The notes beneath the pieces were generated by a model that searched no databases, was not told the origin of the DNA, and was given only the letters and a program-made list of their open reading frames with translations. Made by a program: the position numbers and the translations under genes. A stretch of 64,000 nucleotides of DNA, taken from NCBI RefSeq assembly GCF_003003255.1, contig NZ_PVTD01000006.1, positions 62,001 through 126,000 of the forward strand, in the 5' to 3' direction. Positions 30,457 to 49,726 of the stretch are shown here, one piece after another. Positions within the stretch are counted from its first letter, which is position 1, and every line of letters begins with the position of its first letter. This stretch comes from Aliiruegeria haliotis (GTDB lineage: Bacteria > Pseudomonadota > Alphaproteobacteria > Rhodobacterales > Rhodobacteraceae).

Positions 30457-32118
30457 TCACGGGTCTGCAGCCTCGCCGATATTGTCGACACCGCGTTCTT
30501 CGAGCACCGTGGAAAGCCACTCCGGGTCCATTTCCGGCACGGAGGACAGCAGCAGATCGGTGTAGGGATGGTGCGGCGGGGTGAACATCTCGTCCTTGGG
30601 GCCCTGTTCGACCACCTTGCCGTGTTGCATCACGACCACCTCGTCGGCAATGGAACGCACCGTCGCCAGATCGTGGGTGATGAACATGTAAGCAAGGCCA
30701 AGCTCGTCCTGAAGCCTGTCCAGCAGCTTCAGGATACCCTCCGCCACGAGCTGGTCGAGCGCGCTGGTGACTTCGTCGCAGATGATGAACTCCGGCTCGG
30801 CGGCCAAGGCGCGTGCGATCCCGATCCGTTGCTTCTGTCCACCTGAAAGCTCTGGCGGATAGCGGCTGTAGAACTTGGCCGGGTCGAGTTCGATCAGGTC
30901 CAGAAGCTCGTCGACACGCTGCTTCAGCGCCGAGCCATGCAGCCCGCCGTAAAACTGCGCCGGCCGGCCGATGATGTCGCTGATCCGGACCTTCGGGTTC
31001 AGCGCCGTGTCCGCCATCTGGTAGATCATCTGCGCCTGTCGCAACTGGTCGCGGGTGCGGTCCTTGTAGCGCGGTGGCAGCGGCTCGCCCTTGCACATGA
31101 TCTGGCCGCTCATCGGCGGCAGCAGACCGGTGATGCAGCGCGCCGTCGTTGACTTGCCGGAACCGGATTCGCCCACGACGGCCACTGTCATGCCCGGGTA
31201 GATGTCGAAGGAGACGTCATCCAGAACCTTGACGCCACCTGTGTAGGCCGCATCCACGTTCTGGACCGAGATCAGGGGCTGCGAGCCGTCTGTCGGGCGG
31301 TGGCGTTGCGGCGAGTTGAAGCTTCGGACCGCCCAGAGGCTCTTGGTATAATCCTCCTGCGGACTGTCGAGCATCACCTGCGTGGGGGCCTGTTCGACCT
31401 CCTCGCCCTTGAGCAGAACCTTGATCGTGTCGGCCATCTGCGCCACCACGGCCAGGTCGTGGGTGATGTAGATCGCGGCCGTGTCGAACTGGTCCACGAT
31501 GTCGCGGATCGCGGCGAGAACCTCGATCTGGGTGGTCACGTCGAGCGCCGTGGTCGGCTCGTCGAAGATGATCAGATCCGGCCGGCACGACATGGCCATG
31601 GCCGTCATTGCCCGCTGCAACTGCCCGCCAGACACCTGGTGGGGGTAGCGGAAACCGATCTCTCCGGGGTTGGGAAGGCGCAGGCGCTCATAAAGCTCCA
31701 TCGCATCTTCCTGTGCTTCCAGCCGTTTCTTGATCCGGTAGTGAACCGGCGCCTCCGTGTGCTGGTCGATGATCTTGTGGGACGGGTTGAACGAGGCCGC
31801 CGCCGATTGCGCGACATAGGCGATGCGCGAGCCGCGCAGGGCACGCCGCTCGGCTTCCGAGGCTGTCGTCAGTTCCATCCCGTCGAACTCGATCGAGCCA
31901 TCGGAGATACGCGTGCCGTCGCGGGCATAGCCCATTGCGGCGGCACCGATGGTGGACTTGCCCGCACCACTTTCGCCGATGAGGCCCATGACCTCGCCGC
32001 GGTGCAGGGTGAGATCCACGCCCTTGATGATCGGCACCCAGGTCTCGTCGGAATAGCCCTCGATCTTGAGATCCTTGATCTCGAGCAGGACGTCCGCATC
32101 CTTGAACTTGTCGTGCAT
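30457..32118 (-). CDS. ABC importer ATPase with two nucleotide-binding domains (oligopeptide/opine type)
   Basis: A 553-residue fusion of two OppD/OppF-like ATPases. Walker A sequences are 'GESGAGKST' near residue 50 and 'GESGSGKST' near 325; signatures are 'VSGGQLQRAMTAMAM' and 'LSGGQKQRIGIARALA'; Walker B sequences are 'LIIFDEPTTALD' and 'FIICDEVTSALD'. The fused form is like GsiA/DdpDF-type importers. It starts one base after the DppC-like gene stop. With the two permeases and family 5 binding proteins it makes a complete importer. Confidence 0.95.
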   Translation of the reverse strand: MHDKFKDADVLLEIKDLKIEGYSDETWVPIIKGVDLTLHRGEVMGLIGESGAGKSTIGAAAMGYARDGTRISDGSIEFDGMELTTASEAERRALRGSRIAYVAQSAAASFNPSHKIIDQHTEAPVHYRIKKRLEAQEDAMELYERLRLPNPGEIGFRYPHQVSGGQLQRAMTAMAMSCRPDLIIFDEPTTALDVTTQIEVLAAIRDIVDQFDTAAIYITHDLAVVAQMADTIKVLLKGEEVEQAPTQVMLDSPQEDYTKSLWAVRSFNSPQRHRPTDGSQPLISVQNVDAAYTGGVKVLDDVSFDIYPGMTVAVVGESGSGKSTTARCITGLLPPMSGQIMCKGEPLPPRYKDRTRDQLRQAQMIYQMADTALNPKVRISDIIGRPAQFYGGLHGSALKQRVDELLDLIELDPAKFYSRYPPELSGGQKQRIGIARALAAEPEFIICDEVTSALDQLVAEGILKLLDRLQDELGLAYMFITHDLATVRSIADEVVVMQHGKVVEQGPKDEMFTPPHHPYTDLLLSSVPEMDPEWLSTVLEERGVDNIGEAADP

Positions 32119-32119
32119 G

Positions 32120-33184
32120 TTATTGCTCCTTCAGGCCGGAAGTCCGGAACAGCATCCAGTCGACGACGAAATTGACCGCCACGGTCAGCAGCGCGATGGC
32201 CGCTGCCGGGATCAGCGGGGTGATGTCTCCGAAAGAGATGAGTGTCGCGTTTTCACGCACCATCGATCCCCAGTCGGCCGTGGGCGGCTGGATGCCAAGG
32301 CCAAGGAAGCTGAGCCCCGCGATCAGCAGGAACACGAAGCAGAACTCCAGGCCAAACTCGGCGATCAGCGGTGCCGTGGCATTGGGCAGGATCTCCCGAC
32401 GGATCAGGTACCAGTCCTTCTCCCCGCGCAGTTTCGCCGCTTCGATGTAGTCCATGACGACGATATTTCCAGCCACCGCGCGGGTCAGACGGAATACCCG
32501 TGGCGAGTAGATGATGGCCACAACGACCACGATCACATGCAGGCCGGTTCCAAAGATCGACAGCATCAGCAGCGCGAAGATCAGCGAGGGAATGGACATG
32601 ATCACGTCCGCCACGCGTCCCATGAGCTGGTCGAACCACCCCCCTTTCACAGCGGCCAGAAGCCCCGCGAGGGCGCCCATGAAGAAGGCGAGGAGCGTTG
32701 CGACAAGCGCCAGTCCGACCGAGTTGCGCGCGCCGTAGATGATCCGGCTGAACATGTCACGGCCAAGCTGGTCGGCCCCCAGCAACATGTTCTCGTCCGG
32801 TGGAGCGAATGCCTGGCCGATGATCTCGGCCTCGCCGTGTGGTGCGATCCAGGGCGCGAAGATACCGGCGATGGCATAGGTGAAGATCACGAACATGCCG
32901 AAGGCGGCCGTGAGCGGCGCCGTGCGCAGCTCTTTTGCGAGCCCGGGCTTCGAGATCAGGATCAGGAACTCCCGGAAGGCATAGGATGTGCCTGCCGCCA
33001 GCGCGAGAATGAAGGACGCGGTGGCGACGAAGCGCAGGGCGCCGGCCCCGCCGATGATCCCCAGCACGAAGGAGACCAGCGTCAGTGAAAACAGCAGCAT
33101 GAAGACATTGCGCTGCTTGTAATAGGCCGCAAGGCAGGAGGCTGCGATCAGGGCCGTGTAATAGATGATGACGAAACTGCTCAT
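32120..33184 (-). CDS. ABC importer permease, DppC/OppC-like
   Basis: A 354-residue permease. It differs from typical DppC in having extra N-terminal membrane helices ('MSSFVIIYYTALIAASCLAAYY'), then the classic segment 'PHGEAEIIGQAFAPPDENMLLGADQLGRDMFSR' (shown only in part) and the EAA loop 'DYIEAAKLRGEKDWYLIRREILPN'. It forms a dimer with the DppB-like subunit. The gene lies 10 bases after the DppB-like gene and one base before the ATPase. Confidence 0.93.
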   Translation of the reverse strand: MSSFVIIYYTALIAASCLAAYYKQRNVFMLLFSLTLVSFVLGIIGGAGALRFVATASFILALAAGTSYAFREFLILISKPGLAKELRTAPLTAAFGMFVIFTYAIAGIFAPWIAPHGEAEIIGQAFAPPDENMLLGADQLGRDMFSRIIYGARNSVGLALVATLLAFFMGALAGLLAAVKGGWFDQLMGRVADVIMSIPSLIFALLMLSIFGTGLHVIVVVVAIIYSPRVFRLTRAVAGNIVVMDYIEAAKLRGEKDWYLIRREILPNATAPLIAEFGLEFCFVFLLIAGLSFLGLGIQPPTADWGSMVRENATLISFGDITPLIPAAAIALLTVAVNFVVDWMLFRTSGLKEQ

Positions 33185-33194
33185 GATTCCGCCC

Positions 33195-34151
33195 TCACTT
33201 CGGATGCCGCAGGCGCGGGTTGGTCAGGATTGCCCCGACGTCGGCCGCGAGATTGAGAAGGATGAAGGTCGCTGCGAAGATCAGGCAGCAGGCCTGCACC
33301 ACCGGGAAGTCGCGCTTGGCGACCGCGTCGACCAGCAACTGGCCGATGCCCGGATAGACGAAAACGACCTCGACGAGCACCACGCCGGTGATGAGATAGG
33401 CGAGGTTCAGCGCCACCACGTTGATGATCGGCGCCCATGCATTGGGCAGGGCGTGCTTCACGATCACCTTCCAGGGCGGGGTGCCCTTGAGCCGTGCCAT
33501 TTCGATATAGGGAGAGGCCAGGAGGTTGATGATCGCGGCGCGCGTCATCCGCATCATGTGCGCGGTCACCACGAGCACCAGCGTCAGCATTGGCAGGAAG
33601 GCCCTGTGGAGGAGCTCCAACAGGCCCATGTCACCGCTGAGGCTTGAAATGGCCGGGAACATTGTTGCCCGGACAGCGAGGAAGAGGATGAGGACGTAGC
33701 CGAGGAAGAACTCCGGTGAGGAGATCGTCGTCAGCGTCATGACGTTGGCGACCCGATCGAAGATCGTGTTGCGGTAGAGCGCGGTGAAGACACCCAGCAG
33801 GATGGAAATCGGCACGGCAATCACCGCGGCGTAGGAGGCGAGGAACAGCGTGTTGACGAAACGATCCGAGATAGCGTCGCTCACCCGTTCGCCGGACACC
33901 AGCGACACACCGAAATCGCCCGTCACCGCGCCGCCGAGCCACTCGAAGTAGCGAACGAACGCAGGCCGGTCGAGGCCCAGTTGCTCCCGCATTGCCGTCA
34001 CGGTTTCCTCGGTTGCGCCCTGTCCGAGCACCGCTTCCGCGATATCGCCCGGCAGGAGCTCCACCGCGAAGAAGATCAGTACCGATACCACGAGAATGGT
34101 GCCGAGACCGAGACCCAGTCGTTTGAAGACCAGCCTGGTGAGGTCGCCCAT
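33195..34151 (-). CDS. ABC importer permease, DppB/OppB-like
   Basis: A 318-residue permease with six or so helices and the DppB signatures 'FFAVELLPGDIAEAVLGQGATEE' (partly given), 'MTRAAIINLLASPYIEMARLKG' as the EAA loop, and the C-terminal 'VEVVFVYPGIGQLLVDAVAKRD'. It follows the binding-protein gene after a 185-base gap with a strong stem-loop, which may lower its expression relative to the binding protein. Confidence 0.94.
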   Translation of the reverse strand: MGDLTRLVFKRLGLGLGTILVVSVLIFFAVELLPGDIAEAVLGQGATEETVTAMREQLGLDRPAFVRYFEWLGGAVTGDFGVSLVSGERVSDAISDRFVNTLFLASYAAVIAVPISILLGVFTALYRNTIFDRVANVMTLTTISSPEFFLGYVLILFLAVRATMFPAISSLSGDMGLLELLHRAFLPMLTLVLVVTAHMMRMTRAAIINLLASPYIEMARLKGTPPWKVIVKHALPNAWAPIINVVALNLAYLITGVVLVEVVFVYPGIGQLLVDAVAKRDFPVVQACCLIFAATFILLNLAADVGAILTNPRLRHPK

Positions 34152-34336: not shown

Positions 34337-35944
34337 TCAGCCTGTGAACCACCAACGGCTCGCCGCACGGGCGCCGTCGCATTCCCAACTCGCCGCCAAC
34401 GCGTCTGGGGTGCCGACATTCGAGCGGTTGGCATAGACGAAGTTGTTGAAGAACGGGATGATGGTGCCGCCGTCGTCGCGGGCCAGCATCGCCATCTCGC
34501 GGTAGATCTCGCCGCGCTTAGCATCGTCGAGTTCGGCCTTGCCCATCAACAGCAGTTCGTTGAACCGGTCATTGACCCAGTAGCTCTCGTTCCAGGCCGC
34601 GTCGGCCTTGTAGGCCAGCGTGTACATGACGTCCGGTGTCGGGCGCGCACCCCAGGACACGAGGGTGAAGGGCTTCACCAGCCATACGTCGGAGTAATAC
34701 CCGTCATTGGGTTCACGCACGACGTTGACGTTGATCCCGGCGGCCTTGGCCTGCTCGGCATAGAGAACCGCCATGTCGACCGCGCCGGCATAGACACTGT
34801 CGGCCGTGCTGAGGCTCACCGTGAGCCCTTCGGCACCGGCTTTCTTCAGCAGTGACTTCGCCTGATCGGGATCATACTCGCGCTGCGGGATGTCCTCGGG
34901 CCAGTACGGTTGGGCCGGCGAGTGGTGGAAGTCGTTGCCCTTGGTGGCGGCGCCGAAGGCGATCTTCTCGATGATCTCGTCGCGGTTCATCGCCAGCTTC
35001 ATCGCGTTGCGCACATCCGGATTGTCGAAGGGCGCCTTGTTGCAATGCATCGGCATGGTGATCGCACCGGCCGAGGGGATATTGTGGATGGTGATGTTCG
35101 GATCCCGCTGCAAGAGCGCCATCGTCTTCAGCTCGATCAGCGAGACCGCATCCACGTCGCCGGTGACCAGCGCGGTCTGGCGCGCGTTGGGATCGTTCAG
35201 AACGAGGATCTCGACCTTGTCGAAATACGCGCCTTCGCGGTGCCAGCCGTCATGGCGCGACAGCTGCCAGTTCACACCGAACTCGCCGCCGTCGATCTTG
35301 TAGGGGCCCGTGCCGTCGCCGGATTTCCACTCGATGGTGCCGTCGTCATTGGCCGGGCAGATGGCGAAGTGGTAGTCGGTCATCAGCCACGGCAGGTCGG
35401 CATTGCCGCCGGTCAGGGTGATCTTGACGGTGTAGTCGCCATCCTTGGTGATCTCGACAACGTCGCTCAGGAGTGCCTTGGCGGCAGAGGTCGTGTCGTC
35501 GCCGCGGTGGTGGTTCAGCGACGCAATCACGTCATCGGCGGTGCATTTCTTGCCGCTGTGGAAGGATGCGTTCTCGTTGATCTTGAACGTCCACTCGGAG
35601 GCGTCTGCGGAGGCTTCCCAACTATCGGCAAGGTCCGGGCCAAGCGACCCGTCGCCGTTGATCATCGTCAGGTAGGACCGATGGGTATGGGCCAGATAGA
35701 TCATCTGCCGGGTCACGTAGGAGCCCGGATCGTGTGTATCCGAGGTGTTGCCGTCGTGCAGACCCCAGCGGAACGTGCCGCCGGACTTGGGCTGCGCCGC
35801 GGCCTTCGTCGTCCACAGCCCGGTGGCCGTGGTCGCCGTCAGGCCGGCGGCGATGGACGTGTTGATGAAGTCGCGACGAGAAATGCGACCGGTACGCGCC
35901 GCATCCGCAATTCGATTGATCAGGACTTGGTCTTTCTTCGACAT
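34337..35944 (-). CDS. ABC importer substrate-binding protein, family 5 (first copy)
   Basis: A 535-residue periplasmic binding protein. 'SRRDFINTSIAAGLTATTAT' is a Tat-like signal, cut near 'AAAQP'. Family 5 marks include 'PDLADSWEASADASEWTFKINENASFHSGK' (shown in part), 'AVSLIELKTMALLQR' and 'NPDVRNAMKLAMNRDEII'. It is 45-50% like the second binding protein at 39260 by eye. The ligand is unknown; family 5 members bind peptides, opines, nickel or betaine-like compounds. The divergent MttB-family gene shares its 271-base promoter region. Confidence 0.93.
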   Translation of the reverse strand: MSKKDQVLINRIADAARTGRISRRDFINTSIAAGLTATTATGLWTTKAAAQPKSGGTFRWGLHDGNTSDTHDPGSYVTRQMIYLAHTHRSYLTMINGDGSLGPDLADSWEASADASEWTFKINENASFHSGKKCTADDVIASLNHHRGDDTTSAAKALLSDVVEITKDGDYTVKITLTGGNADLPWLMTDYHFAICPANDDGTIEWKSGDGTGPYKIDGGEFGVNWQLSRHDGWHREGAYFDKVEILVLNDPNARQTALVTGDVDAVSLIELKTMALLQRDPNITIHNIPSAGAITMPMHCNKAPFDNPDVRNAMKLAMNRDEIIEKIAFGAATKGNDFHHSPAQPYWPEDIPQREYDPDQAKSLLKKAGAEGLTVSLSTADSVYAGAVDMAVLYAEQAKAAGINVNVVREPNDGYYSDVWLVKPFTLVSWGARPTPDVMYTLAYKADAAWNESYWVNDRFNELLLMGKAELDDAKRGEIYREMAMLARDDGGTIIPFFNNFVYANRSNVGTPDALAASWECDGARAASRWWFTG

Positions 35945-36215: not shown

Positions 36216-37772
36216 ATGACCACAGAAACGATCCCCTCCGGGAGCCGTGCCGGCGGCCCCGCAGCCCGGCGCGCCCGGCGCGCCAGACCCGACCTGCGGA
36301 TGCTTCCGGGCTTGCACAACCGCCTTCCGCGCTGCGAGCCGATGACCCCCGACGAGGTCGCCCGGATCGACGCGGCATCCATGGACATCCTCGAAGACGT
36401 CGGTGTCGTCTTTCGTGACGAGATCGCGCTTGGGGATTGGCGGAACGCCGGGGCGGATGTGCGCGGCGAGCGTGTACATCTGGATCGCGGGCTGGTCCGG
36501 AACTTGATCGCGACAATACCGTCGGATTTCACCTACACCGCCCGGAACCCGGCGAACAGCTTGCGGCTCGGTGGGCGCGATTCGATCTTCGTCCCGATGA
36601 CGGGCGCGCCCTTCCTGCGCGATCTCGACGACCGGCGGCGGAGTCCGACCCTTGATGACCTCGCCATGTTCCACAAGCTGGCCCAGATGTCGCCGGCGCT
36701 GCATTCGAGCGCGCATCACATCGTGGAACCCTGCGACCTGCCCGTGAGCCACAGGCACCTGCATATTACCTATTCCTCGATGAAACACTCGGACAAGACC
36801 TTCATGGGCATGACGACCAGCCCGAAGAACGCCGAGGACGTCATGGAGATGTGTGCGATTCTCTTTGGTGCCGAGTTCATGGAGAGCCATCCGGTCACTA
36901 CCGGGAACTGCAACGGCAACTCACCCCTCGTCTGGGACGAGACGATGTTGGGAGCCATGCGCGCCTTCTGCCGCCGCAACCAGCCGGTGCTTTGCTCGCC
37001 CTTCGTGCTGGGCGGCGCCAACACGCCCGCCTCAGTCGCACCGACGGTGGCGCAGCTCAACGCCGAGGCGCTTTCGGCGCTGGCCTATACTCAGGTCATC
37101 CGGCGCGGATGCCCGGCAATCTATGGCCACTATCTCTCGACAGTTTCCATGAAGTCCGGCGCGCCGATGGCCGGCACACCGGAAATCAGCCTGATGAACT
37201 TCATGATCGGCCAGATGGCACGGCACTACGATGTGCCCTGGCGGACGTCCAACACGCTGGGTGGCGCCAAGACCTTCGATGCGCAGGCAGGTTATGAGAG
37301 CGCCACGACACTCTCGGCGGTCATCCATGCCGGTGCCAACTACATCTGGCATTCGGCGGGCTGGAACGAGGCGGGCATGCATTGCTCCGTGGCCAAGTTC
37401 ATCGTTGATGCGGAGCAATGCGCCATGGCCTATCGCATGGCCGAGGGAATCCGGTGGGACGATTTCGATGCCGGGCTGGAGGCTGTGCGGGACATCGGGC
37501 CAGGCGGGCACTACCTTGGCCACCCGCATACGCAGGACAATTTCCAGCGGGCGTTCTTTCTGCCGGAGTTGTTCGACAACAACTCCATCGAGCAATGGCA
37601 GGCCGAAGGGGCGGTCGAGATCACGGGACGCGCTCTGCGTCAGGCGCGCAAGTTGCTTGATGTCTATATCGAGCCGGCCCTCGACGAGGCGAAGGACGAA
37701 GAACTGCGGGACTACATCGTGCGCCGCGAGGCCGAGATCCCAGCGGTGGAGGCACTCAACCAGGAGTTCTGA
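36216..37772 (+). CDS. MttB-family (trimethylamine methyltransferase-like) protein
   Basis: A 518-residue member of the MttB superfamily without the in-frame UAG (pyrrolysine) of true MttB, so it belongs to the non-Pyl group that includes glycine betaine and carnitine-type corrinoid methyltransferases. Marks are 'ASMDILEDVGVVFRDE', 'TGNCNGNSPLVWDETMLGAM', 'YGHYLSTVSMKSGAPMAGTPE' and 'HSAGWNEAGMHCSVAKFIVD'. No corrinoid protein or MtbA-like gene is present nearby, so the methyl acceptor is unknown. It precedes the M24 gene by 93 bases. Demethylation of a quaternary or tertiary amine is inferred. Confidence 0.88.
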   Translation: MTTETIPSGSRAGGPAARRARRARPDLRMLPGLHNRLPRCEPMTPDEVARIDAASMDILEDVGVVFRDEIALGDWRNAGADVRGERVHLDRGLVRNLIATIPSDFTYTARNPANSLRLGGRDSIFVPMTGAPFLRDLDDRRRSPTLDDLAMFHKLAQMSPALHSSAHHIVEPCDLPVSHRHLHITYSSMKHSDKTFMGMTTSPKNAEDVMEMCAILFGAEFMESHPVTTGNCNGNSPLVWDETMLGAMRAFCRRNQPVLCSPFVLGGANTPASVAPTVAQLNAEALSALAYTQVIRRGCPAIYGHYLSTVSMKSGAPMAGTPEISLMNFMIGQMARHYDVPWRTSNTLGGAKTFDAQAGYESATTLSAVIHAGANYIWHSAGWNEAGMHCSVAKFIVDAEQCAMAYRMAEGIRWDDFDAGLEAVRDIGPGGHYLGHPHTQDNFQRAFFLPELFDNNSIEQWQAEGAVEITGRALRQARKLLDVYIEPALDEAKDEELRDYIVRREAEIPAVEALNQEF

Positions 37773-37865: not shown

Positions 37866-39125
37866 ATGACGACACTGGACTGGCACGCGGATAGATCCGA
37901 CCTGCACGATCTCGCACTGCTCGACCGGGCGCCAGAGAGCGAGGGAATCGACCTTCCCGCGGTGCGGCTCTACCGGCAGGGGCGTGTGCGCGCAGAGATG
38001 ACCTCACGCGGCATCGACGCGCTCATCCTCTCCGACGCAATCAACATCCGCTATGCCACCGGAACGCGGAACATGCAGGTCTTCACCGCGCGAAACGCGC
38101 CATCGCGCTATCTGGTGCTGACCGCGAACCGCTCCATCCTTTTCGAGTTCACCGGCGCCCTTCATCTTGCCGAAGGCTACGAAACAGTGGACGAGGTGCG
38201 CGCCGCCCGGACCGCGAGCTTTGTCGCCGCCGGTCCCCAAATCGCCGAACGCGAGCGTGGCTGGGCGCGGGAAATGGCGGACCTGCTGGCGGAGTTGCTG
38301 GGACAGGGCGCGGCCACGGTCGGGCTGGAGCGGATGAACGCAGGCGTCGCGCTCGCGCTTGCCGATTGCGGGCTGAGGATCGTCGACGCGCAAGAACCGG
38401 TCGAGATGGCGCGCGCCGTCAAATCCGACGAGGAAATGAAATGCGTGCGCGCCTCGCTACGGGCGACCGAGCGTGGGGTCGCCGCCTTGCGCGCCGCCAT
38501 CCGGCCGGGCCTGACCGAGGCGCAGCTCTGGTCGGTGCTGCACCGTTCGATCATCGCCCAGAACGGCGACTATATCGAGACCCGCCTGCTCAACGCAGGC
38601 CAGCGCACAAACCCCTGGTTTCAGGAGACCGGACCGAACGTGATCGGAGAGAATGAACTCATCGCGCTGGACACGGATGTGGTCGGCTGCCACGGCTACT
38701 ACTCGGACTTCTCCCGCACCTTCCATGCCGGTCCCGGCGCACCATCCGTCACCCAGAGGGAACTCTACCAGACAGCGTTCGAACAGGTGAGCCACAACAT
38801 GTCGATCCTGCGCCCAGGCATGTCTTTCCGCGACTATGCCAACGCGGCCTGGGATATCCCGGAGAAGTACTATGCCAACCGCTACTACCTCTCCGCCCAT
38901 GGATGCGGGATGAGCGGCGAATACCCGTATCTCTATCATCACGGCGATTTCCCGGATGCCGGTTACGATGGCGAAATCCTTCCGGGGATGACGATCTGCG
39001 TGGAAAGCTTCATTGGCGAAGAAAGGGGCGACGAAGGGGTGAAGCTGGAGCAGCAGGTGCTGATCACAGAGACCGGCACCGAGTTGCTATCGCAATTTCC
39101 CTTCGAGGAGGCCTTGCTGAGTTGA
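37866..39125 (+). CDS. DddP-like M24 family metalloenzyme lacking the catalytic Asp
   Basis: A 419-residue creatinase-fold protein with GGAGG five bases before the ATG. The metal set is intact: Asp269 and Asp271 (ALDTD), Asp281 (YSDFSRTF), His345 (AHGCGMSG), Glu380 (CVESFIGE) and Glu395 (VKLEQQVLI). These align at a constant offset of 26 with the known DMSP lyase DddP residues 295, 297, 307, 371, 406 and 421. The catalytic Asp377 of DddP aligns with Gly351, so DMSP cleavage by the known route is unlikely. 'LLNAGQRTNPWFQETGP' is also shared with DddP. A hydrolytic step in the MttB/ABC pathway is more likely. Confidence 0.85.
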   Translation: MTTLDWHADRSDLHDLALLDRAPESEGIDLPAVRLYRQGRVRAEMTSRGIDALILSDAINIRYATGTRNMQVFTARNAPSRYLVLTANRSILFEFTGALHLAEGYETVDEVRAARTASFVAAGPQIAERERGWAREMADLLAELLGQGAATVGLERMNAGVALALADCGLRIVDAQEPVEMARAVKSDEEMKCVRASLRATERGVAALRAAIRPGLTEAQLWSVLHRSIIAQNGDYIETRLLNAGQRTNPWFQETGPNVIGENELIALDTDVVGCHGYYSDFSRTFHAGPGAPSVTQRELYQTAFEQVSHNMSILRPGMSFRDYANAAWDIPEKYYANRYYLSAHGCGMSGEYPYLYHHGDFPDAGYDGEILPGMTICVESFIGEERGDEGVKLEQQVLITETGTELLSQFPFEEALLS

Positions 39126-40859: not shown

Positions 40860-42188
40860 TCACTCGCGGCCGGCGCGCCATTCCTTCCACCGAAGCGTGG
40901 CGTTGGCGCCAATGGTGGCAAGGGGTTCGGGTGGCAGGCGCTTCGGCGCCTCCATCGCGGCGAATGCGCGGGTGATCTCGCTCACTTCTCCCAAGGCCAT
41001 TTCAGCGGCGGACATGCCCGCCAGCGTCCCTTTCGACGTGCCGAGCCCGTTCTGGCAGATGGCGGAAAAAACGCCGGTCGCCACCTCGCCATGTGCCGGC
41101 ACCCCGTTCCAGCTCAGACAGAGATGCCCGGCCCAGCGGTACTGTATGCCCGTTTCGGCAAGCATTGGAAACCGTTCGATGAACTTGCGGTCATGCAGGC
41201 GTCCCGCCGCAGCGATGGCGCTGTTGGAGACCTCCATCGAGGGATCGCAGGTGAAACGGCTCCGTATGACAATGCGTCCGCCTCCCTCGCCATCAATACG
41301 CCGCACGGTGGTTCCCATCGGATCAGCCGGTGTCGCGCCCCAGCGTCGCGCGCCACCCAAAGCGCCGTCGGGGAGCGGTTCGGTCATCGAGGCATACGTA
41401 AAAAAATGCAGCAATCGCCGGGCAAAGAAGCCGAAGCTTTCAGCGTGGCCGTTGTTGGCTAGGATGACCTTTTGCGCGCGTAGACTGGCGCGCGAGGTCT
41501 CCAGCCGCCAGCCCTCGCCGTCTCGCAGGATCCCGGTTACCGGGCTGTCCTCGTGGAGCGCGATCGCCGGGGTCAACCCGGCAGCGAGACCGCGGATATA
41601 GGCCGCCGGTTGCAACATCACGGTGCCGGGCGTGAAGAGCCCGGAACTGTAGTATTCGGTGCCTGTCAGGGCCGCCATTTCTGCGGCATCCAGCAGCCGG
41701 TGATCCTCTCCCATCTTTGCAAGGTGCGCAGCGTAGTCCCGGTTGTGCCCGTCACCGGCGGGCGTGGCAGCGGCGTTGATCTTGCCACAGGGGTCGAATG
41801 CATCGCGCCCCAGCCCATAGTCGTCCGCCGCCGCCGCCGCGAAGGCAATGGCGGCCCGGGTGAGCCGGGTCTGCTCGGCGTCCCTGTCTTCGGTGCCGGC
41901 GTAGCTCTCGGAGGCCAGATCGTGTGGCAGGTCGATCATGAAGCCGGAGTTGCGTCCCGCCGGGCCGTCCCCGACCCGGCCTGCCTCGAGAACCGCTACC
42001 TTCAGCCCGGGATCGATCTGGATCAGGCGCCGGGCGGCGGACAGGCCGGCAAAGCCCGCTCCGATGATTGCTATGTCCGCAGTTGCGTCCCCGTCCAGAA
42101 TCCGCGCGGGCGGGGGCGGTGGCAGCAACCGGTTCCACCCCGCTGACCCGGGCTGTTTCGGCAGCCTGCGCGCGGTGTAGCGTGTCAT
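40860..42188 (-). CDS. FAD-dependent amino-acid/amine oxidoreductase (OrdL/PuuB type)
   Basis: A 442-residue DAO-family flavoprotein. The dinucleotide fold 'ADIAIIGAGFAGLSAARRL' begins near residue 38, followed by 'GPAGRNSGFMIDLPHDLAS', the 'GRNSGF' of OrdL/PuuB oxidases. The C-terminus has 'GLGTSKGTLAGMSAAEMALG'. It overlaps the aldehyde dehydrogenase by four bases (ATGA) and so ends a GntR-DapA-ALDH-oxidase operon. It should oxidise an amine or N-substituted amino acid to an imine or aldehyde with release of the amine. Confidence 0.9.
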   Translation of the reverse strand: MTRYTARRLPKQPGSAGWNRLLPPPPPARILDGDATADIAIIGAGFAGLSAARRLIQIDPGLKVAVLEAGRVGDGPAGRNSGFMIDLPHDLASESYAGTEDRDAEQTRLTRAAIAFAAAAADDYGLGRDAFDPCGKINAAATPAGDGHNRDYAAHLAKMGEDHRLLDAAEMAALTGTEYYSSGLFTPGTVMLQPAAYIRGLAAGLTPAIALHEDSPVTGILRDGEGWRLETSRASLRAQKVILANNGHAESFGFFARRLLHFFTYASMTEPLPDGALGGARRWGATPADPMGTTVRRIDGEGGGRIVIRSRFTCDPSMEVSNSAIAAAGRLHDRKFIERFPMLAETGIQYRWAGHLCLSWNGVPAHGEVATGVFSAICQNGLGTSKGTLAGMSAAEMALGEVSEITRAFAAMEAPKRLPPEPLATIGANATLRWKEWRAGRE

Positions 42189-43684
42189 CCCACCGCCTCG
42201 TCGTCATCGTCGGCCAGGTCCACCCAGATCGTCTTGAACTGGGTGTACTGATCATGAGCGTGCAGGCCATTGTCGCGGCCGCCGAAACCCGAGGTCTTGT
42301 AGCCGCCAAAGGGAGTGGAAATATCCCCCTCGCCAAAGCTGTTCACAGTGACCGTGCCCGCCCGCAATGCCCGCGCCCCGCGCAGGGCCCGCTTAATATC
42401 GGTGGTGAAGATGGACGCCGCGAGGCCGTACTCCGTCTCGTTTGCCAGAGCGATGGCCTCGTCCAGGCCCTGCACTGTCTGGACCGCAAGCACGGGGCCG
42501 AAAATCTCCTCCCGCGCGGCAGCCGACAGGGGTTCGACGTCCATGATCGTCGGATGGACCCAGGCGCCACCTTCTGTCGCGCCACCAAGATGGGTCCGTG
42601 TCCCGGCATCGAGATAGGCGGCGACCTTTTCGAAATGCGCCCGTGACACCAGCGCACCTACGCGTGTGCCCGGGTCCAGCGGGTCGCCCACGGACCATTC
42701 GCGGGCATGGGCAAGGATGCGGGCAAGCAGTGCGTCCTTCACGTCGGCATGCACGATCAGCCGCGAGGTGGCGGAACAGTTTTCACCCATGTTCCAGAAA
42801 GCGCCGTTGACCACGTGAGCCGCAACGCGGTCAAGGTTTCCGGCATCCTCCAGCACGATGCAGGGATTTTTGCCGCCCATCTCCAGAACCACTTCCTTGA
42901 TGTTGCTGTCCGCGGCATAGCGCAGGAACCGGCGCCCGGTTTCGGTGGAGCCGGTGAAAGACACCATGTCCACGTCCATGTGTCGTCCCAGAGGCTCGCC
43001 GACCTCTGGGCCGGTCCCGGGCACCACGTTGAAAACGCCCTTCGGGAGGCCCGCCTCGACGGCCAGTTCGGCCACGCGCAGCGCGGTCATCGAGGTTTCC
43101 TCCGCCGGCTTCACAACCACGGAACAGCCGGCTGCCAGCGCCGGGCCGATCTTCCAGGCGAGCATCAGCAGCGGGAAGTTCCACGGCAACACCAGCCCGA
43201 CCACGCCCACCGGCTCCCGCACGATCATCGCAATATGGTTGTCGGAGGGGGGCGAGACCTGGTCGTAGATCTTGTCGATGGCCTCCGCGTGCCATTTCAG
43301 GCAATGGATGGTCTCGGGGAGGTCGACCGTCTCGCAATCAAGGATCGTCTTGCCGGACTCCAGGCTCTCCAGCACCGCCAGTTCCCGCGCGTTGCGGTTG
43401 ATCAGCTTCGCCAGCCGGATCAACACGTCCTTGCGCTCGGGTGGCGCGCGTTTCGACCAGCGACCATCCTCGAACGCCTCCCGCGCCTTTCCCACGGCGA
43501 AGTCAACATCTTCGGCGCCGCAGGCGGCAATCTCGGCAAGTACCTCTCCGGTGGCGGGGTTGATCGTCTCGAAGGTCGCCCCGGACGCGGCCGGACGGTA
43601 GACGCCATCGACAAAGGCCGTGGTCGGCAGGAGCAACCCGCGCGCGATGGACTTGTATTCCTCGTGGGTCAGCAGGTTCTCCAT
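42185..43684 (-). CDS. Aldehyde dehydrogenase family protein
   Basis: A 499-residue NAD-dependent aldehyde dehydrogenase of the PuuC/BetB/AldA type, beginning 'MENLLTHEEYKSIARGLLLP'. Motifs are 'GLVLPWNFPLLMLAWKIGPAL', 'FTGSTETGRRFL', the glutamate 'LEMGGKNPCIVL' and the catalytic Cys in 'FWNMGENCSATSRL'. The ATG at 43684 lies two bases after the dapA-like stop; the longer open frame upstream is out-of-frame DapA sequence. It likely oxidises the aldehyde made by the flavin oxidase or the lyase. Confidence 0.94.
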   Translation of the reverse strand: MENLLTHEEYKSIARGLLLPTTAFVDGVYRPAASGATFETINPATGEVLAEIAACGAEDVDFAVGKAREAFEDGRWSKRAPPERKDVLIRLAKLINRNARELAVLESLESGKTILDCETVDLPETIHCLKWHAEAIDKIYDQVSPPSDNHIAMIVREPVGVVGLVLPWNFPLLMLAWKIGPALAAGCSVVVKPAEETSMTALRVAELAVEAGLPKGVFNVVPGTGPEVGEPLGRHMDVDMVSFTGSTETGRRFLRYAADSNIKEVVLEMGGKNPCIVLEDAGNLDRVAAHVVNGAFWNMGENCSATSRLIVHADVKDALLARILAHAREWSVGDPLDPGTRVGALVSRAHFEKVAAYLDAGTRTHLGGATEGGAWVHPTIMDVEPLSAAAREEIFGPVLAVQTVQGLDEAIALANETEYGLAASIFTTDIKRALRGARALRAGTVTVNSFGEGDISTPFGGYKTSGFGGRDNGLHAHDQYTQFKTIWVDLADDDDEAVG

Positions 43685-43686
43685 GG

Positions 43687-44604
43687 TCAGCCCTCCGCCT
43701 CGATGTCCGCGATGGTCCGCTTGAGGACCCGCACAACCTGTTCCAGTTGCCGCTTGTCGTCCTTGTTGAGCGCCTTGAGCGGCGGGCGGGGCGGGCCGGC
43801 CATGAACCCGGCCATCTCCACCCCGTGCTTCACGCATTGAATGAACTTGCCACCCTGTTCCAGAACGCGCATCAGCGGCATCATCGCCGACATGATCCTC
43901 CGGCCCTTGGCGAAGTCGCCTTGCACTGCGCAGGCTCGCCATAGCGCGATGTGTTCGCCTGGCAGGAAGTTCGATCCGGCGCAGACCCAACCCGGCGCAC
44001 CCCAGGCAAAGAACTCCAACGCCTGGTCGTCCATGCCGCAGAGCATCTGGATATGCGGGTAGTCGCGCGCCAGCGTGTGCACCCGATTGATATCTCCGGA
44101 GCTTTCCTTGATCGCGCAGATATTGTGCGAGCGGCCCACCCGGTCGAGGAAAACGTCGCCCATGAACGTGCCGGTGCGGCCGGGGTAGTTGTAGAGCATG
44201 ATCGGCAGATCCGCGGCGCGATCGATGGCCAGCACGTTGAGCGCGTTTTCCTGCTCCGTCGGGACGGCATAGGGGGGCGAGGCGACGAGGATCGCATCGG
44301 CCCCCATCTCCCGCGCCGCTTCGGCAAGCGCAATGCTGTCAGCGGTGCGCATGGCACCTGTTCCCACAATCAGTGGTAACCTTCCGTCGAGCCGGTCCCG
44401 TGTGAAACGTGCGAGACTCACACGCTCGTCGACGGTCTGGGCATAGTTCTCCCCGGTGGAGCCGCCGGAGATCACCCCGTGGACGCCCGAAGCCACGAGA
44501 TGCTCGATCACCGTTTCCAGCGCGTCGAGCCGAACGGTGCCATCGGCATCGTAGGGCGTCACAATGGGAGTGTAGATCCCGGAAAAGGTCATCCTGGGTG
44601 TCAT
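43687..44604 (-). CDS. DapA-family aldolase/lyase (DHDPS/NAL superfamily)
   Basis: A 305-residue class I Schiff-base lyase. The pocket 'GVISGGSTGENYA', the Tyr in 'IMLYNYPGRTG' and the catalytic Lys in 'ICAIKESSGDINR' are intact. Being in a GntR-controlled operon with an aldehyde dehydrogenase and an FAD oxidase, it is more likely a catabolic keto-acid lyase or deaminase (like HypD or KDG aldolase) than a lysine-synthesis enzyme. The start could be at residue 1 or at Met5. Confidence 0.9.
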   Translation of the reverse strand: MTPRMTFSGIYTPIVTPYDADGTVRLDALETVIEHLVASGVHGVISGGSTGENYAQTVDERVSLARFTRDRLDGRLPLIVGTGAMRTADSIALAEAAREMGADAILVASPPYAVPTEQENALNVLAIDRAADLPIMLYNYPGRTGTFMGDVFLDRVGRSHNICAIKESSGDINRVHTLARDYPHIQMLCGMDDQALEFFAWGAPGWVCAGSNFLPGEHIALWRACAVQGDFAKGRRIMSAMMPLMRVLEQGGKFIQCVKHGVEMAGFMAGPPRPPLKALNKDDKRQLEQVVRVLKRTIADIEAEG

Positions 44605-45358: not shown

Positions 45359-45417
45359 ATTTGTATTTGCACTTACCCAATGTAGAACAGAAGAAACGCG
45401 AACAGCACACGGCACAA

Positions 45418-46398
45418 ATGGACGGGTCAGCGGCAGAAACCGACATCCAGGGCTTTACCATCCTTCTTGTCGAGGATTTCACACATCTTGCCTTCTCCTG
45501 TGCGATCGAGCCGCTTCGCATTGCAAACCTGATCAATGGCAGCCCGCTCTATAGCTGGCGGCTGGTGTCGGAGACCGGGACCGAGGCCACCTGTTCGAAC
45601 GGAACGCGGACGATTGTCGATTGCGGTCTTGAGCCTGTGCCGGCGGGGGACATCCTGCTGATCCTCTCCGGGATCAACGTGGAGCGGCAGATCACCCCGA
45701 AGCTGCTTGCCTACATCCGACGCGAGAGGGCGCGCGGCACGAGAATCGGAGCGCTCTGCTCCGGGGCATACGTGCTGGCGAAGGCGGGGCTGCTGGATGG
45801 ACGCCGCGCCACGATCCACTGGCAGTTTCATGACAGCTTCGAGGAACTGTTCCCGGAAGTCCGCCTGATCCGAAGCGTCTATGTGCCCGATGCCAAGTAC
45901 CCGACGGCGTCCGGCGGTACGGCCACGGCGGATCTGATGCTGCACCTCATCGGTCGCGCGCATGGCGAAGAGCTTGCCATCGCCGTGGCCGACCAGATGC
46001 TCTACAACGCCGCCCGCAACGCCGATGCCGCTCAGCGGTACTCCCTGCAATCGCGCTACGGGTTGCGAAACACCCATATCGCCGACGCGGTTCGCCTGAT
46101 GACCGACCGGATGGAGGACCCGATGTCGCCCTCCGAGATCGCGGCGGAGCTGGGGATCTCGGCACGGCAACTGGAGCGACTGTTCGGCCGCTACATGAAA
46201 TGCAGTCCAAAGAAATTCGCCACCGACTTGCGACTGGACCGGGCCCGAAACCTGCTCCTGCAAACCGAATTGTCAGTCACCGAGATCGCCCATGCCTGCG
46301 GATTCGGGTCGACGGGGCATTTCTCCCGTGTCTACCGGTCCCGGTTCGAGGTCACGCCGACCCGACAGCGCGCATCGCACCGGCTGGACCGTCACTGA
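45418..46398 (+). CDS. GlxA-family AraC-type transcriptional regulator
   Basis: A 326-residue regulator with an N-terminal DJ-1/PfpI-like domain (about 10-185, 'IGALCSGAYVLAKAGLLDGRRATIHWQ' in part, with the family 'CSGA') and a C-terminal AraC HTH pair ('SPSEIAAELGISARQLERLFGRY', 'LSVTEIAHACGFGSTGHFSRVYR'). These resemble GbdR and CdhR, which respond to glycine betaine, dimethylglycine or carnitine. The ATG at 45418 lacks a good ribosome site. It may activate the nearby MttB/ABC genes, which would fit a betaine-like substrate. Confidence 0.9.
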   Translation: MDGSAAETDIQGFTILLVEDFTHLAFSCAIEPLRIANLINGSPLYSWRLVSETGTEATCSNGTRTIVDCGLEPVPAGDILLILSGINVERQITPKLLAYIRRERARGTRIGALCSGAYVLAKAGLLDGRRATIHWQFHDSFEELFPEVRLIRSVYVPDAKYPTASGGTATADLMLHLIGRAHGEELAIAVADQMLYNAARNADAAQRYSLQSRYGLRNTHIADAVRLMTDRMEDPMSPSEIAAELGISARQLERLFGRYMKCSPKKFATDLRLDRARNLLLQTELSVTEIAHACGFGSTGHFSRVYRSRFEVTPTRQRASHRLDRH

Positions 46399-47135
46399 AA
46401 CTTCGCTGTCGGTCCGGTGGGTTCCGCGACCAGGGCAAGCGCGTCTTCCAAGGCGACGCTCCGGTTGAACAGCGCACGCCCGATGATTGCCCCCGAGATA
46501 TGCGGCACGTATTTCAACCGTGCAAGGTCGTCGATGGAGCGGGAAAGCCCGCTTGCGATGACCGGCGCCCGGGCGATCTCGGCCATGCGTGTGATCAACG
46601 CCAGCGAGTCCTCCGCTTCGTCGAGATCGGCGTCGATGTCGGTCACGATGATCGCCGCGAGCGGATCACTCTCGTACACCCTCAGAAGGTCTTCCGGCTC
46701 AAAGCTGCTGGTCTCCCGCCAACCGTTGCTGACGACCTTGCCCTTGTAGACATCGATGGCCAGCACGATCTGGTCCGGAAAAAGCTTGGCGGCCTCTTTT
46801 ACGATATCGGGGGCGAGCACGGCCAGCGTGCCGACGACAATTCGCCCGGCGCCGGCCTCGATCCAGTCCGCGATGGATTGAAGCGAGCGGAAGCCGCCGC
46901 CGAGTTGGACGGATGTGCCGCACTGACCAATGATCTCGCGGAGCAATTCGGTGTTCCGGTCGCTGCCGCCGACACCATCGAAATCGGTGATGTGAATCCA
47001 TTCGGCGCCCGCCTGTGCAAAGCTGATCGCACGTTCCAGTGGGTCGACATGCCAGATCTGGGGCTCGTCGATATTGCCTCTGAAAAGGCTCACGCAGCGG
47101 CCATCGAGCAGTTCGATCGTCGGGTAGAGAATCAT
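46392..47135 (-). CDS. HisA-like isomerase paralogue with altered catalytic residue
   Basis: A 247-residue (beta-alpha)8 protein of the HisA/HisF family. 'MILYPTIELLDGRCVSLFRG' aligns with HisA 'PAIDLKDGKCVRL', so the first catalytic Asp8 is Glu here, while Asp128 in 'LAIDVYKGKV' matches the second catalytic Asp. Phosphate sites 'LGGGFRS' and 'ASGLSRSIDDL' are kept. It is outside a his operon, overlaps the end of the GlxA-type regulator by 7 bases, and lies beside amine-catabolism genes. It is probably a paralogue with a different or slower reaction; I cannot name the substrate. Confidence 0.85.
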   Translation of the reverse strand: MILYPTIELLDGRCVSLFRGNIDEPQIWHVDPLERAISFAQAGAEWIHITDFDGVGGSDRNTELLREIIGQCGTSVQLGGGFRSLQSIADWIEAGAGRIVVGTLAVLAPDIVKEAAKLFPDQIVLAIDVYKGKVVSNGWRETSSFEPEDLLRVYESDPLAAIIVTDIDADLDEAEDSLALITRMAEIARAPVIASGLSRSIDDLARLKYVPHISGAIIGRALFNRSVALEDALALVAEPTGPTAKFQ

Positions 47136-47372: not shown

Positions 47373-48365
47373 TCACACGCCGATGGTGGCTCCGAGGCCG
47401 AGCCGCATCGCGGCGTCGCGCGCGAGCGTCGCTATGGCCGTATCCTGCACGCCGGTTCCGGTCAGGTCGCATATCGTCCTGTCGGAGTCGCTCTGTCGCC
47501 CGTGTGCTGTCCCGTACAAAAGCGATCCCAGTTCGACCGGTGAGACCTGCGCCTGAAGGCTGGCAGCGCATGCGGAGGACAATTCCCCCATGGTTTCGCA
47601 TTGGCTGATGCGATCGCAGACATAGAGGTCGGCGGCGGCGAGGATCGCGGGGGCGATCTCGTTCTTGCCGGCCTGATCGGACCCCATCGCGGTGATGTGC
47701 ATACCCGCGCGCAAGGCGCCGGTTTGCAGCAAGGGCGCGCGTGCCGGTGTGGTCGTGATCACAAGCTGGGCCTGCGCGGCAAGCGCCGCCGGGCTTTCGG
47801 AAATTGCGGCCTCGATCCCCAGCAACGAGGCGATGTCCCGCGCGCAGGCCTCCGCCTTGTTGCGGTCGCGCCCCCAGACCAACGCCCGGCGAAAGGGGCG
47901 CACCAAATGCGCCGCCTGCATCTGCAACCGCGCCTGCACGCCGGTGCCAAGTACGCCGGCGGTCTCTACCTCGCTCGGCGCGAGGTGGCGGGCGGCGACG
48001 GCGCCAGCAGCGGCGGTGCGGATGTCGGTCAGATAGCCATTGTCCAACAGCAGTGCCTCGACCAACCCGGTGCGGGCGGAGAACAGGATCATCAGCCCGT
48101 TGAGGCTGGGCAGGCCGATCAGAGGGTTGTCGAAGAAACCGGGACTGACCTTGATGGCGAAGCTGTCAAAACCGGGGATATAGGCCGTCTTGACGTCCAC
48201 CTCCCCGTTTGCCGCGGGCAGTTCCATGGACAGCACGGGCGGCATGACGACCTTACCGCCGCCCAATTCGCGGAATGCGCGTTCGATGCAATCCACCGCT
48301 GCAAGGTCAAGTGGTACGGCCTTGCGAAGGTCGGCTTCGGTCAGGATGGTCACGTCACGGGTCAT
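47373..48365 (-). CDS. eutC: Ornithine cyclodeaminase/mu-crystallin family protein (EutC-like)
   Basis: A 330-residue NAD-dependent protein. 'TDIRTAAAGAVAARHLAPSE' and 'AGVLGTGVQARLQMQA' are the Rossmann and binding motifs of the OCD/mu-crystallin family; 'MGSDQAGKNEIAP' is near the substrate site. The 330-residue size and its position directly after an EutB-like dehydratase match EutC of ectoine/hydroxyectoine utilisation operons. Its start overlaps the end of eutB by 11 bases. The symbol is a best guess from pair and motifs. Confidence 0.75.
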   Translation of the reverse strand: MTRDVTILTEADLRKAVPLDLAAVDCIERAFRELGGGKVVMPPVLSMELPAANGEVDVKTAYIPGFDSFAIKVSPGFFDNPLIGLPSLNGLMILFSARTGLVEALLLDNGYLTDIRTAAAGAVAARHLAPSEVETAGVLGTGVQARLQMQAAHLVRPFRRALVWGRDRNKAEACARDIASLLGIEAAISESPAALAAQAQLVITTTPARAPLLQTGALRAGMHITAMGSDQAGKNEIAPAILAAADLYVCDRISQCETMGELSSACAASLQAQVSPVELGSLLYGTAHGRQSDSDRTICDLTGTGVQDTAIATLARDAAMRLGLGATIGV

Positions 48366-49362
48366 GGCGGTGTCCTTCGATTCTCCGGTCTCCAAGAACG
48401 ACAGCCTCTCCGTTGATGATCTTCGTGAACAGGTCCATGTCGAGGTTGCGTCCGGTGAGTATCGTGGCGACCGGGCCAGCGGGTGCCGGCAGTTTGCCCG
48501 CCATCGCCGCAGCGATTCCCACGACGCTGCCACCCTCGGCCACGATCCGATCTTCGAAATAGAGCGCCTGCATGGCGCGGTAGATGTCTTCTTCGGTGAC
48601 CAGAACGGATCCGTCGAGCAGGTCGCGACACATCCCGAGAGTGAACCGGTTGGACGCGCCGATCCCACCGCCGAGGCTGTCGGCGAGGCTCGGGACCTCG
48701 TCCACCTCGACCGGGTGGCCGGCCTGAAGGGACAGGTGCATCGCCGCACCACGATCCATGGTGATCCCGATGACACGAAGGCGCGGGCTCAGCGTCTTGG
48801 CGGCGAGGGCCACGCCGGCGGCCAGCCCGCCACCCGAGAGTGGCACCAGCAGCATCTCGAGGTCCGGCCGTGCTTCCAGGATCTCCAGCCCGATCGTGCC
48901 CTGTCCGGCGATGACCTTGGGGTCGTCGAAGGGCGGGATTTCGGCCAACCCCTCGGTCTGGCAGAGCCGCGTGCAGGCCCGCTGCGCGTCATCCTGGCTT
49001 TGCCCCTCGATCCGCACCTCCGCCCCGAGCGCGCGAATGCCCGCGACCTTTGCGTCGGGCACCAGCGTGGACATGCAGATGACCGCCCTCAACCCGTGTT
49101 CCCGAGCCGCATAGGCCACGCCACGCCCGTGATTTCCGGTGGAACAGCAGGTCACCCCGGCGACGTCATCCGGCAGGGCCATGATCGCGTTCATGGCACC
49201 CCGCAGCTTGAAGGCGCCGATGGGCTGCGCGATCTCAAGCTTCAGAAAGGCTTCCGTCCCCAACAGACCGGAGAGCAGGGGAGATGGCACCATGGGGGTC
49301 GCGTCCGCCCTGCCGCGCAAAACGGCACGCGCGGCAAGGATATCCGACATTTCCGGCCGCAT
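48355..49362 (-). CDS. eutB: PLP-dependent threonine dehydratase-like enzyme (EutB-like)
   Basis: A 335-residue fold-type II PLP enzyme. The Schiff-base Lys52 lies in 'GAFKLRGAMNAI' and the PLP-phosphate loop in 'SGGGLAAG'. 'CCSTGNHGRGVAYAAREHG' has the STGNHGR of EutB rather than the SAGNHAQG of biosynthetic threonine deaminase, and no ACT regulatory domain follows. In hydroxyectoine utilisation EutB is thought to dehydrate a hydroxy-diaminobutyrate-type intermediate. Genes eutA, eutD/doeA and eutE/doeB are not nearby, so the pathway may differ here. Confidence 0.78.
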   Translation of the reverse strand: MRPEMSDILAARAVLRGRADATPMVPSPLLSGLLGTEAFLKLEIAQPIGAFKLRGAMNAIMALPDDVAGVTCCSTGNHGRGVAYAAREHGLRAVICMSTLVPDAKVAGIRALGAEVRIEGQSQDDAQRACTRLCQTEGLAEIPPFDDPKVIAGQGTIGLEILEARPDLEMLLVPLSGGGLAAGVALAAKTLSPRLRVIGITMDRGAAMHLSLQAGHPVEVDEVPSLADSLGGGIGASNRFTLGMCRDLLDGSVLVTEEDIYRAMQALYFEDRIVAEGGSVVGIAAAMAGKLPAPAGPVATILTGRNLDMDLFTKIINGEAVVLGDRRIEGHRHDP

Positions 49363-49546: not shown

Positions 49547-49726
49547 ATGACCGCAAAGACGAATTTCCTCTGGGGCGGGCCCCTGATCGGCCGTGCGCCG
49601 TGCAGGGCATGCCAAGCCGGGCAGGGGCCATGGATGGCGGCGTCGGCCCATGAGGGTTTGGAGAGGATCGGGACCCTCCCGGGGCCTTGTGCGCGCAGGC
49701 CCGCAAGCGGCCTTGTGAAGGCATGA
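49547..49726 (+). CDS. Possible small protein coupled to the M20 deacylase gene, 59 residues
   Basis: An open frame beginning MTAKTNFLWGGPLIGRAP with GGAGGA six bases before the ATG, a better ribosome site than most genes here. Its stop TGA overlaps the ATG of the M20 gene (ATGA), so it could drive coupled translation. The protein is rich in Ala, Gly, Pro and Arg with CRAC and PGPC motifs. I do not recognise it; it may be a leader peptide or a decayed gene head. Confidence 0.4.
   Translation: MTAKTNFLWGGPLIGRAPCRACQAGQGPWMAASAHEGLERIGTLPGPCARRPASGLVKA

Follow-up and report, generated by a model that had tools for sequence, protein, structure and literature searches.

DddP and the first look at P0001

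In the mechanism described for the DMSP lyase DddP, a moveable Fe holds the DMSP carboxylate, a tryptophan and a tyrosine hold the sulfur, and an aspartate takes the alpha proton (PMC5395565). According to the same account, two histidines conserved in M24 peptidases are an aspartate and a phenylalanine in DddP, and RlDddP gave no measurable activity on valine-proline (PMC5395565). Asp377 is described as invariant among DddP lyases (PMC4108388). Hehemann et al. preferred this residue as the base in RdDddP, with Tyr366 as the alternative, and in their description the metal does not keep this tyrosine deprotonated (PMC4108388).

The window analysed here, a stretch of 64,000 nucleotides from Aliiruegeria haliotis, encodes a protein, P0001, that retains much of this apparatus. 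The gene and its relevant codons are as follows.

37866..39125, plus strand: P0001, DddP-like M24 protein of 419 residues with Gly351
38670..38708, plus strand: metal-ligand codons D269 (38670-38672), D271 (38676-38678) and D281 (38706-38708)
38883..38885, plus strand: Y340 codon, equivalent to Tyr366 of RlDddP
38898..38900, plus strand: metal-ligand codon H345
38916..38918, plus strand: Gly351 codon, at the place of the catalytic Asp377 of DddP
39003..39050, plus strand: metal-ligand codons E380 (39003-39005) and E395 (39048-39050)

An in-frame TTG lies 30 nt 5' of the ATG, and about 75 matched loci align from residue 1 at this ATG. The protein consists of Creatinase-N and M24 domains, the Peptidase_M24 domain scoring 105.4 bits (gathering score 23). 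When compared with the PDB by phmmer, it matches the DddP DMSP lyases first (4b28, 4s01, 4rzy and 4s00; E 7e-67 to 2e-65) and, far more weakly, other M24 enzymes (4ege, 6e-14).

The first-pass annotation had pointed to the six DddP ligands at a constant offset of 26, to a retained RTNPWFQE segment, and to a glycine in place of the catalytic aspartate. All three observations hold. In the multiple alignment, D295, D297, D307, Y366, H371, E406 and E421 of RlDddP fall on D269, D271, D281, Y340, H345, E380 and E395 of P0001, each at the offset of 26, so that the three Asp, two Glu and one His that bind metal in DddP are all present, together with the equivalent of Tyr366; RTNPWFQE is found as in DddP; and D377 falls on G351. 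The same annotation had asked whether another Asp might align with the catalytic position. The stretch H345-E352 is aligned to DddP without a gap, and G346, G348, E352 and P354 are kept in both the close Gly group and the DddP group; therefore, no alternative Asp can be placed there. With the metal-site residues and the tyrosine kept and the base absent, the proposed DddP reaction cannot run unchanged in P0001.

P0001 compared with DddP and other M24 enzymes

The structural enzymes of reference (RlDddP, 4RZY/4S00/4S01, and RdDddP, 4B28) share with P0001 the fold, the six ligands, the tyrosine and the RTNPWFQE stretch, at about 33% identity to RlDddP. They differ in having Asp377 rather than Gly351, in belonging to a separate clade and in their genome context. 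The annotation had also warned that a member of this family might automatically be called a DMSP lyase. This does not happen with the NCBIfam DddP model NF043017, which excludes P0001 at 301.5 bits, half its cut-off of 600. Plasmid relatives about 39-48% identical are annotated as 'Xaa-Pro peptidase family protein' or 'aminopeptidase P family protein', and two records named DddP, about 34% identical, are true-DddP-like.

One could still imagine that P0001 cleaves DMSP or DMSOP, perhaps weakly, with Tyr340 as the base, as the DddP fold and the metal-site residues are shared. Betaine importers can also transport DMSP, so that a betaine-type gene context would be compatible with such an activity. 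Several observations make this improbable. The position of Asp377 is Asp in 32/32 DddP rows and Gly in 84/84 rows of the P0001 group, P0001 counted; several other positions conserved in DddP are altered in the group (W95 to F73, T90 to R68 and H98 to R76); and the genome already carries a true DddP elsewhere (G000:C1:411773-413086), which scores 828.7 bits where the model requires 600. The gene context, given below, also differs. We conclude that P0001 is very probably not a normal DMSP lyase. The fixed glycine, the placement in a clade apart from DddP, the presence of a true DddP in this genome and the distinct gene context thus give good support to the suggestion of a reaction other than that of DddP.

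The AF2 model of P0001 (pLDDT 80.8, pTM 0.82) falls below 50 at residues 1-24, 69-79, 239-244 and 248-253, and the poorly predicted segments 69-79 and 248-253 contain conserved stretches common to DddP. Aligned with VIA-align, the model gives Z 41 with DddP, up to about 32 with prolidases, and about 30-31 with ectoine hydrolase and creatinase. Such predicted fold likeness alone indicates no function. Prolidase and aminopeptidase P of the M24B group have the same Creatinase-N and M24 domains, whereas P0001 has, like DddP, the extra ligand D271. Creatinase and the ectoine hydrolase DoeA/EutD, also of the M24 fold, both hydrolyse small nitrogen compounds; creatinase uses no metal, in which it differs from P0001, and P0001 scores only 44 bits with the EutD/DoeA model TIGR02993 (cut-off 613).

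Genes around P0001 in the window

The following genes surround P0001.

30457..32118, minus strand: ABC importer ATPase, two ABC domains
32120..33184, minus strand: ABC importer permease (BPD_transp_1)
33195..34151, minus strand: ABC importer permease (BPD_transp_1)
34337..35944, minus strand: SBP1, second SBP_bac_5 substrate-binding protein
36216..37772, plus strand: MttB-family methyltransferase, 93 nt upstream of P0001
39260..40840, plus strand: SBP2, ABC importer substrate-binding protein (SBP_bac_5), 134 nt downstream of P0001
40860..42188, minus strand: FAD oxidoreductase (DAO), 52% identical to the DAO of an R. leguminosarum cluster
42185..43684, minus strand: aldehyde dehydrogenase (ALDH), 66% identical to the ALDH of the R. 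leguminosarum cluster
43687..44604, minus strand: DapA-family protein
45361..46398, plus strand: GlxA/GbdR-type AraC regulator, 314 bits to GbdR, below the cut-off of 480
47373-48365, minus strand: EutC-like cyclodeaminase, scoring 473 bits with PRK08291 (above the cut-off of 408) and 450 with TIGR02992 (below the cut-off of 472)
48355-49362, minus strand: EutB-like hydroxyectoine dehydratase, scoring 446 bits with PRK07476 (above the cut-off of 413)
49687-50883: ArgE-like M20 gene, after the eutC/eutB-like genes

This region looks like an osmolyte-catabolism island. The MttB-family frame has no in-frame stop, so there is no pyrrolysine amber codon; the closest solved relatives of its product are 4yyc, followed by 2qne and by 9yce, an entry that bears the name glycine betaine methyltransferase. 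Genome-wide, MttB has five matches, OpuAC two and B12-binding_2 one. The importer in the window is of the SBP_bac_5 type (peptide, opine, nickel) and not OpuAC, which counts against a betaine-type substrate. Amid the catabolic genes lies a HisA-like protein (46392-47135, minus strand; 185 bits, below the HisA cut-off of 229), possibly a HisA paralogue with a different role.

Could P0001 be the ectoine hydrolase for the nearby eutB/eutC-like genes? This is unlikely, given its 44 bits with the EutD/DoeA model and the EutD-like M24 protein encoded elsewhere in the genome, which reaches 563 bits and is itself below the cut-off of 613. In the R. leguminosarum cluster, an epimerase over the 4-hydroxyproline epimerase cut-off is found with a GbcA-like Rieske protein (412 bits, below the cut-off of 670), a glycine-betaine-type importer and a DddP-like protein of the Asp type. 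This cluster makes hydroxyproline betaine attractive as the sole substrate of P0001, but the idea was set aside, since DAO-ALDH-DapA genes lie near only 5/84 close loci (a count that includes the repeats L128 and L138 and a misplaced anchor in L061) and the DddP-like protein in R. leguminosarum is an Asp-type member.

The same genes raise the question of whether P0001 cleaves X-Pro or X-hydroxyproline dipeptides, brought in by the family-5 importer of the peptide type, and so feeds the hydroxyproline-type genes. The M24 fold, the SBP_bac_5 importer and the five loci with DAO-ALDH-DapA genes agree with this. Against it, M24 peptidases carry a catalytic histidine ahead of a Glu (HE motif), and in the HGCGMSGE segment of P0001 it is Gly351 that precedes E352, so that this histidine is missing. 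Moreover, the OpuAC and BCCT contexts of some relatives are unsuited to dipeptides. Both peptidase histidines are replaced in DddP itself, and RlDddP is described as inactive on valine-proline (PMC5395565). We hold a dipeptidase to be quite unlikely.

Glycine 351 in the relatives

Close relatives were taken as the best 80 of 224 from a contig scan, at 71-86% identity to P0001. Their hosts include roseobacters, Stappiaceae, rhizobia, Pseudomonas, Zobellella, Caballeronia, Streptomyces, Nocardiopsis and Pseudonocardia, and the clade of Gly members as a whole spans Alpha-, Beta- and Gammaproteobacteria and Actinomycetota. The 84 close rows comprise these 80, P0001 and three further sequences, with L128 and L138 duplicating L026 and L065. 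The six metal ligands are invariant in them and Y340 is kept in all 84. Nine additional close rows, three of them repeats, all have Gly, as do L151, L153, L154 and L131 and, at greater distance, L148 and L149. The 22 rows of other DddP-like proteins have Asp at position 351 in 18 cases, Asn in two, Gly in one and Ser in one, the Ser belonging to L129, which is apparently broken. Caballeronia, S. meliloti, Shinella and other Alphaproteobacteria carry Gly members at 43-50% identity; Asp members likewise occur at similar identity. No residue clearly substitutes for Asp377 in the P0001 family; H358 is invariant in the close clade and not throughout the Gly members. Two members look broken, L133 (7489-9234), which has an internal stop, and L129 (6532-7776), in which the match stops early, and both were excluded from the trees and the context counts.

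P0001 lies outside the DddP clade in both trees that were built. In the 63-row tree, unrooted, with the residue-351 column omitted and the intermediate Gly rows included, one branch separates all 22/22 Gly rows (SH-aLRT 99.8), and the D, G and N states require three changes in total. One change would account for a single Gly clade, provided that the root is placed outside it. Hence, judging from these sequences, Gly most likely arose once and was then retained; the tree, being unrooted, gives no order for the Asp and Gly states. In the first tree, which had a very distant M24 outgroup and no intermediate Gly rows, L131 (Gly) stood off the close clade, beside the outgroup, and a program warning flagged the joining of long branches.

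The dN/dS of P0001 (Nei-Gojobori) is about 0.12 against L004 and about 0.09 against L005. The Gly clade is under constraint and separate from true DddP. Its occurrence is patchy: of 385 genomes sampled from the class, 13 gave matches at E <= 1e-120, three of the 13 being at 49-53% identity and one of these three being of the Asp type (L150), and so did 6 of 146 relatives, including two of the nine own-genus genomes listed. The P0001 family is apparently an uncharacterised M24 family sister to DddP, which we name the DddP-Gly clade; no description of it was found in the literature searched by title and opening of abstract.

As the DddP aspartate and the peptidase histidine are both missing, P0001 might have been a non-catalytic metal-binding protein, a sensor or a chaperone. 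The invariance of the six ligands and the 65-86% identity reached by relatives across classes and two phyla are more enzyme-like, and we consider this idea very improbable.

Gene context of the relatives

Homologues of OpuAC, BCCT, MttB, DMGDH-GcvT or Rieske (GbcA-like) proteins were counted within 7.5 kb at 139 loci. The repeats L128, L138, L139, L140, L142 and L158 were left out, L061 counts as both close and other, L122 as both other and true DddP, and close loci were retained even where the sequence on one side was shorter than 7.5 kb. With families picked after some loci had been seen, queries taken from some of the counted loci, and loci that are related, betaine-type genes were found at 22/88 close Gly loci versus 0/22 true DddP loci, all the latter from one family of Alphaproteobacteria (Fisher p 0.006), and at 18/31 other DddP-like loci (Gly, Asp, Asn) in the same comparison (Fisher p 4e-6). 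The absence of the five families at all true DddP loci is the difference in context that speaks against DMSP or DMSOP lyase activity. In turn, all five families are absent within 7.5 kb at 66/88 close loci, which counts against a betaine-type substrate. Enrichment within loci is moderate, 17/318 near genes being betaine-type versus 7/598 far genes (Fisher p 0.0003), as counted on codon-scored genes with L136 absent and the L061 anchor misplaced.

Counted in the same way, a codirectional gene lies within 300 bp downstream in 30/81 close loci: OpuAC in six, SBP_bac_5 in three, DMGDH in three, BCCT in one and other genes in 17. These 17 include an ABC permease followed by an ATPase and an OpuAC gene in L072, with an ATPase and OpuAC similarly placed in L069 (both Nocardiopsis), and L061, where the real downstream gene is DMGDH-like. 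Pfam confirmed OpuAC in L005, L066, L020, L041 and L083 (directly downstream in L041, L066 and L083), BCCT in L067 and DAO-GcvT domains in L059. The commonest neighbour is a divergent GcvA-like LysR gene, adjacent in 29/84 close loci, the repeats L128 and L138 and the misplaced L061 anchor included.

In S. meliloti and Shinella, a Gly member is flanked by MttB-GlxA on one side and by the four genes of a glycine-betaine ABC importer on the other; its gene shares one base with an isochorismatase-family gene, which favours hydrolytic chemistry. This M24 protein has Gly at 351 and belongs to the same Gly clade, but is only 43% identical to P0001, and the cluster differs by its OpuAC-type importer and by having isochorismatase, MR/MLE and Ldh genes in addition. 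The literature searched gave no description of this MttB-GlxA-M24-isochorismatase-OpuABC cluster. Hydantoinase/oxoprolinase-type genes lie near Asn- and Asp-type DddP-like proteins (L126 8467-10470, L159 4835-6883); together with the S. meliloti isochorismatase-family gene, they hint at chemistry on amides or ureides.

Asp-type and Gly-type DddP-like proteins stand side by side in L149 (6012-7256, 7324-8532) and are found in one locus in L061 (4897-6162, 11819-13171), which suggests that one pathway uses them for two steps or on two substrates. L122 (3112-12752), from a genome of the same family, packs three DddP-like genes into less than 10 kb: two score above the DddP cut-off, at 643 and 744 bits, and the third, at 372 bits, belongs to another branch. 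Genes resembling 2OG oxygenases lie between them. HalD-like 2OG-Fe(II) oxygenase genes (Pfam PF23169) lie directly beside DddP-like genes of both the Asp and the Gly types (L149 5153-5998, L154 8987-9931, L131 6912-7865, L122 10675-11484).

Proposed function

With MttB directly upstream, SBP_bac_5 downstream, and OpuAC, an OpuB-type importer, BCCT and DMGDH in part of the relatives, the compound handled by P0001 would be imported and betaine-type; for the substrate taken by itself, we lean towards this class. Given the betaine-type transport and demethylation genes around some members of the family, our best guess is that P0001 hydrolyses a betaine-type compound. The first-pass annotation had proposed a hydrolase acting on an imported N-methylated or amide compound; context strengthens the imported, betaine-type part, and the hydrolase part stays at the level of the plausible. 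We infer both substrate and reaction, and give a probability of about 0.45 to the reading that P0001 is a binuclear-metal M24 enzyme, probably hydrolytic, that acts on an imported betaine-type onium compound without the DddP base.

P0001 would bind a betaine-type zwitterion (a quaternary ammonium compound or close analogue) through a metal-carboxylate contact, the retained tyrosine and an aromatic pocket, its remaining residues being able, presumably, to bind the zwitterion and to activate water. The beta-elimination of DddP would not occur, because the residue taking the alpha proton is missing, and a metal-bound hydroxide, as in M24 hydrolases, could cleave a C-N or acyl bond. The products would pass to N-demethylation by the MttB or DMGDH-type enzymes beside several Gly members; in the Asp-type relatives, the adjacent Rieske enzymes might perform this step. 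In A. haliotis, P0001 would work with the adjacent MttB enzyme and the family-5 ABC importer within the osmolyte-catabolism island.

Another possibility is a lyase that expels the ammonium group of a betaine, as DddP expels a sulfonium, with Tyr340 or another residue as the base. The betaine-type gene context would suit such an enzyme equally, and Y340, kept throughout the close rows, corresponds to the alternative base discussed for RdDddP (PMC4108388). This reading is unlikely: the residue favoured as the base is fixed as Gly, and Tyr366 of RdDddP is described as not being held deprotonated by the metal (PMC4108388).

We propose, tentatively, that DddP may be the sulfonium branch of a wider M24 family. 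Its other members, Asp and Gly types alike, would act alongside MttB, Rieske or DMGDH demethylases in processing ammonium betaines. The Gly clade might then be a new enzyme class that kept the metal site, dropped the lyase base and carries out another reaction.

DddP is regarded as an abundant source of marine DMS, and gene surveys rely on homology. The Gly clade is a constrained M24 clade beside DddP, defined by the lost catalytic Asp, and its fixed Gly-for-Asp marks a boundary beyond which homology to DddP no longer means DMSP lyase. Together with its betaine-type context, the clade provides a testable hypothesis on the origin of DddP and is a candidate enzyme class for the breakdown of nitrogen osmolytes.
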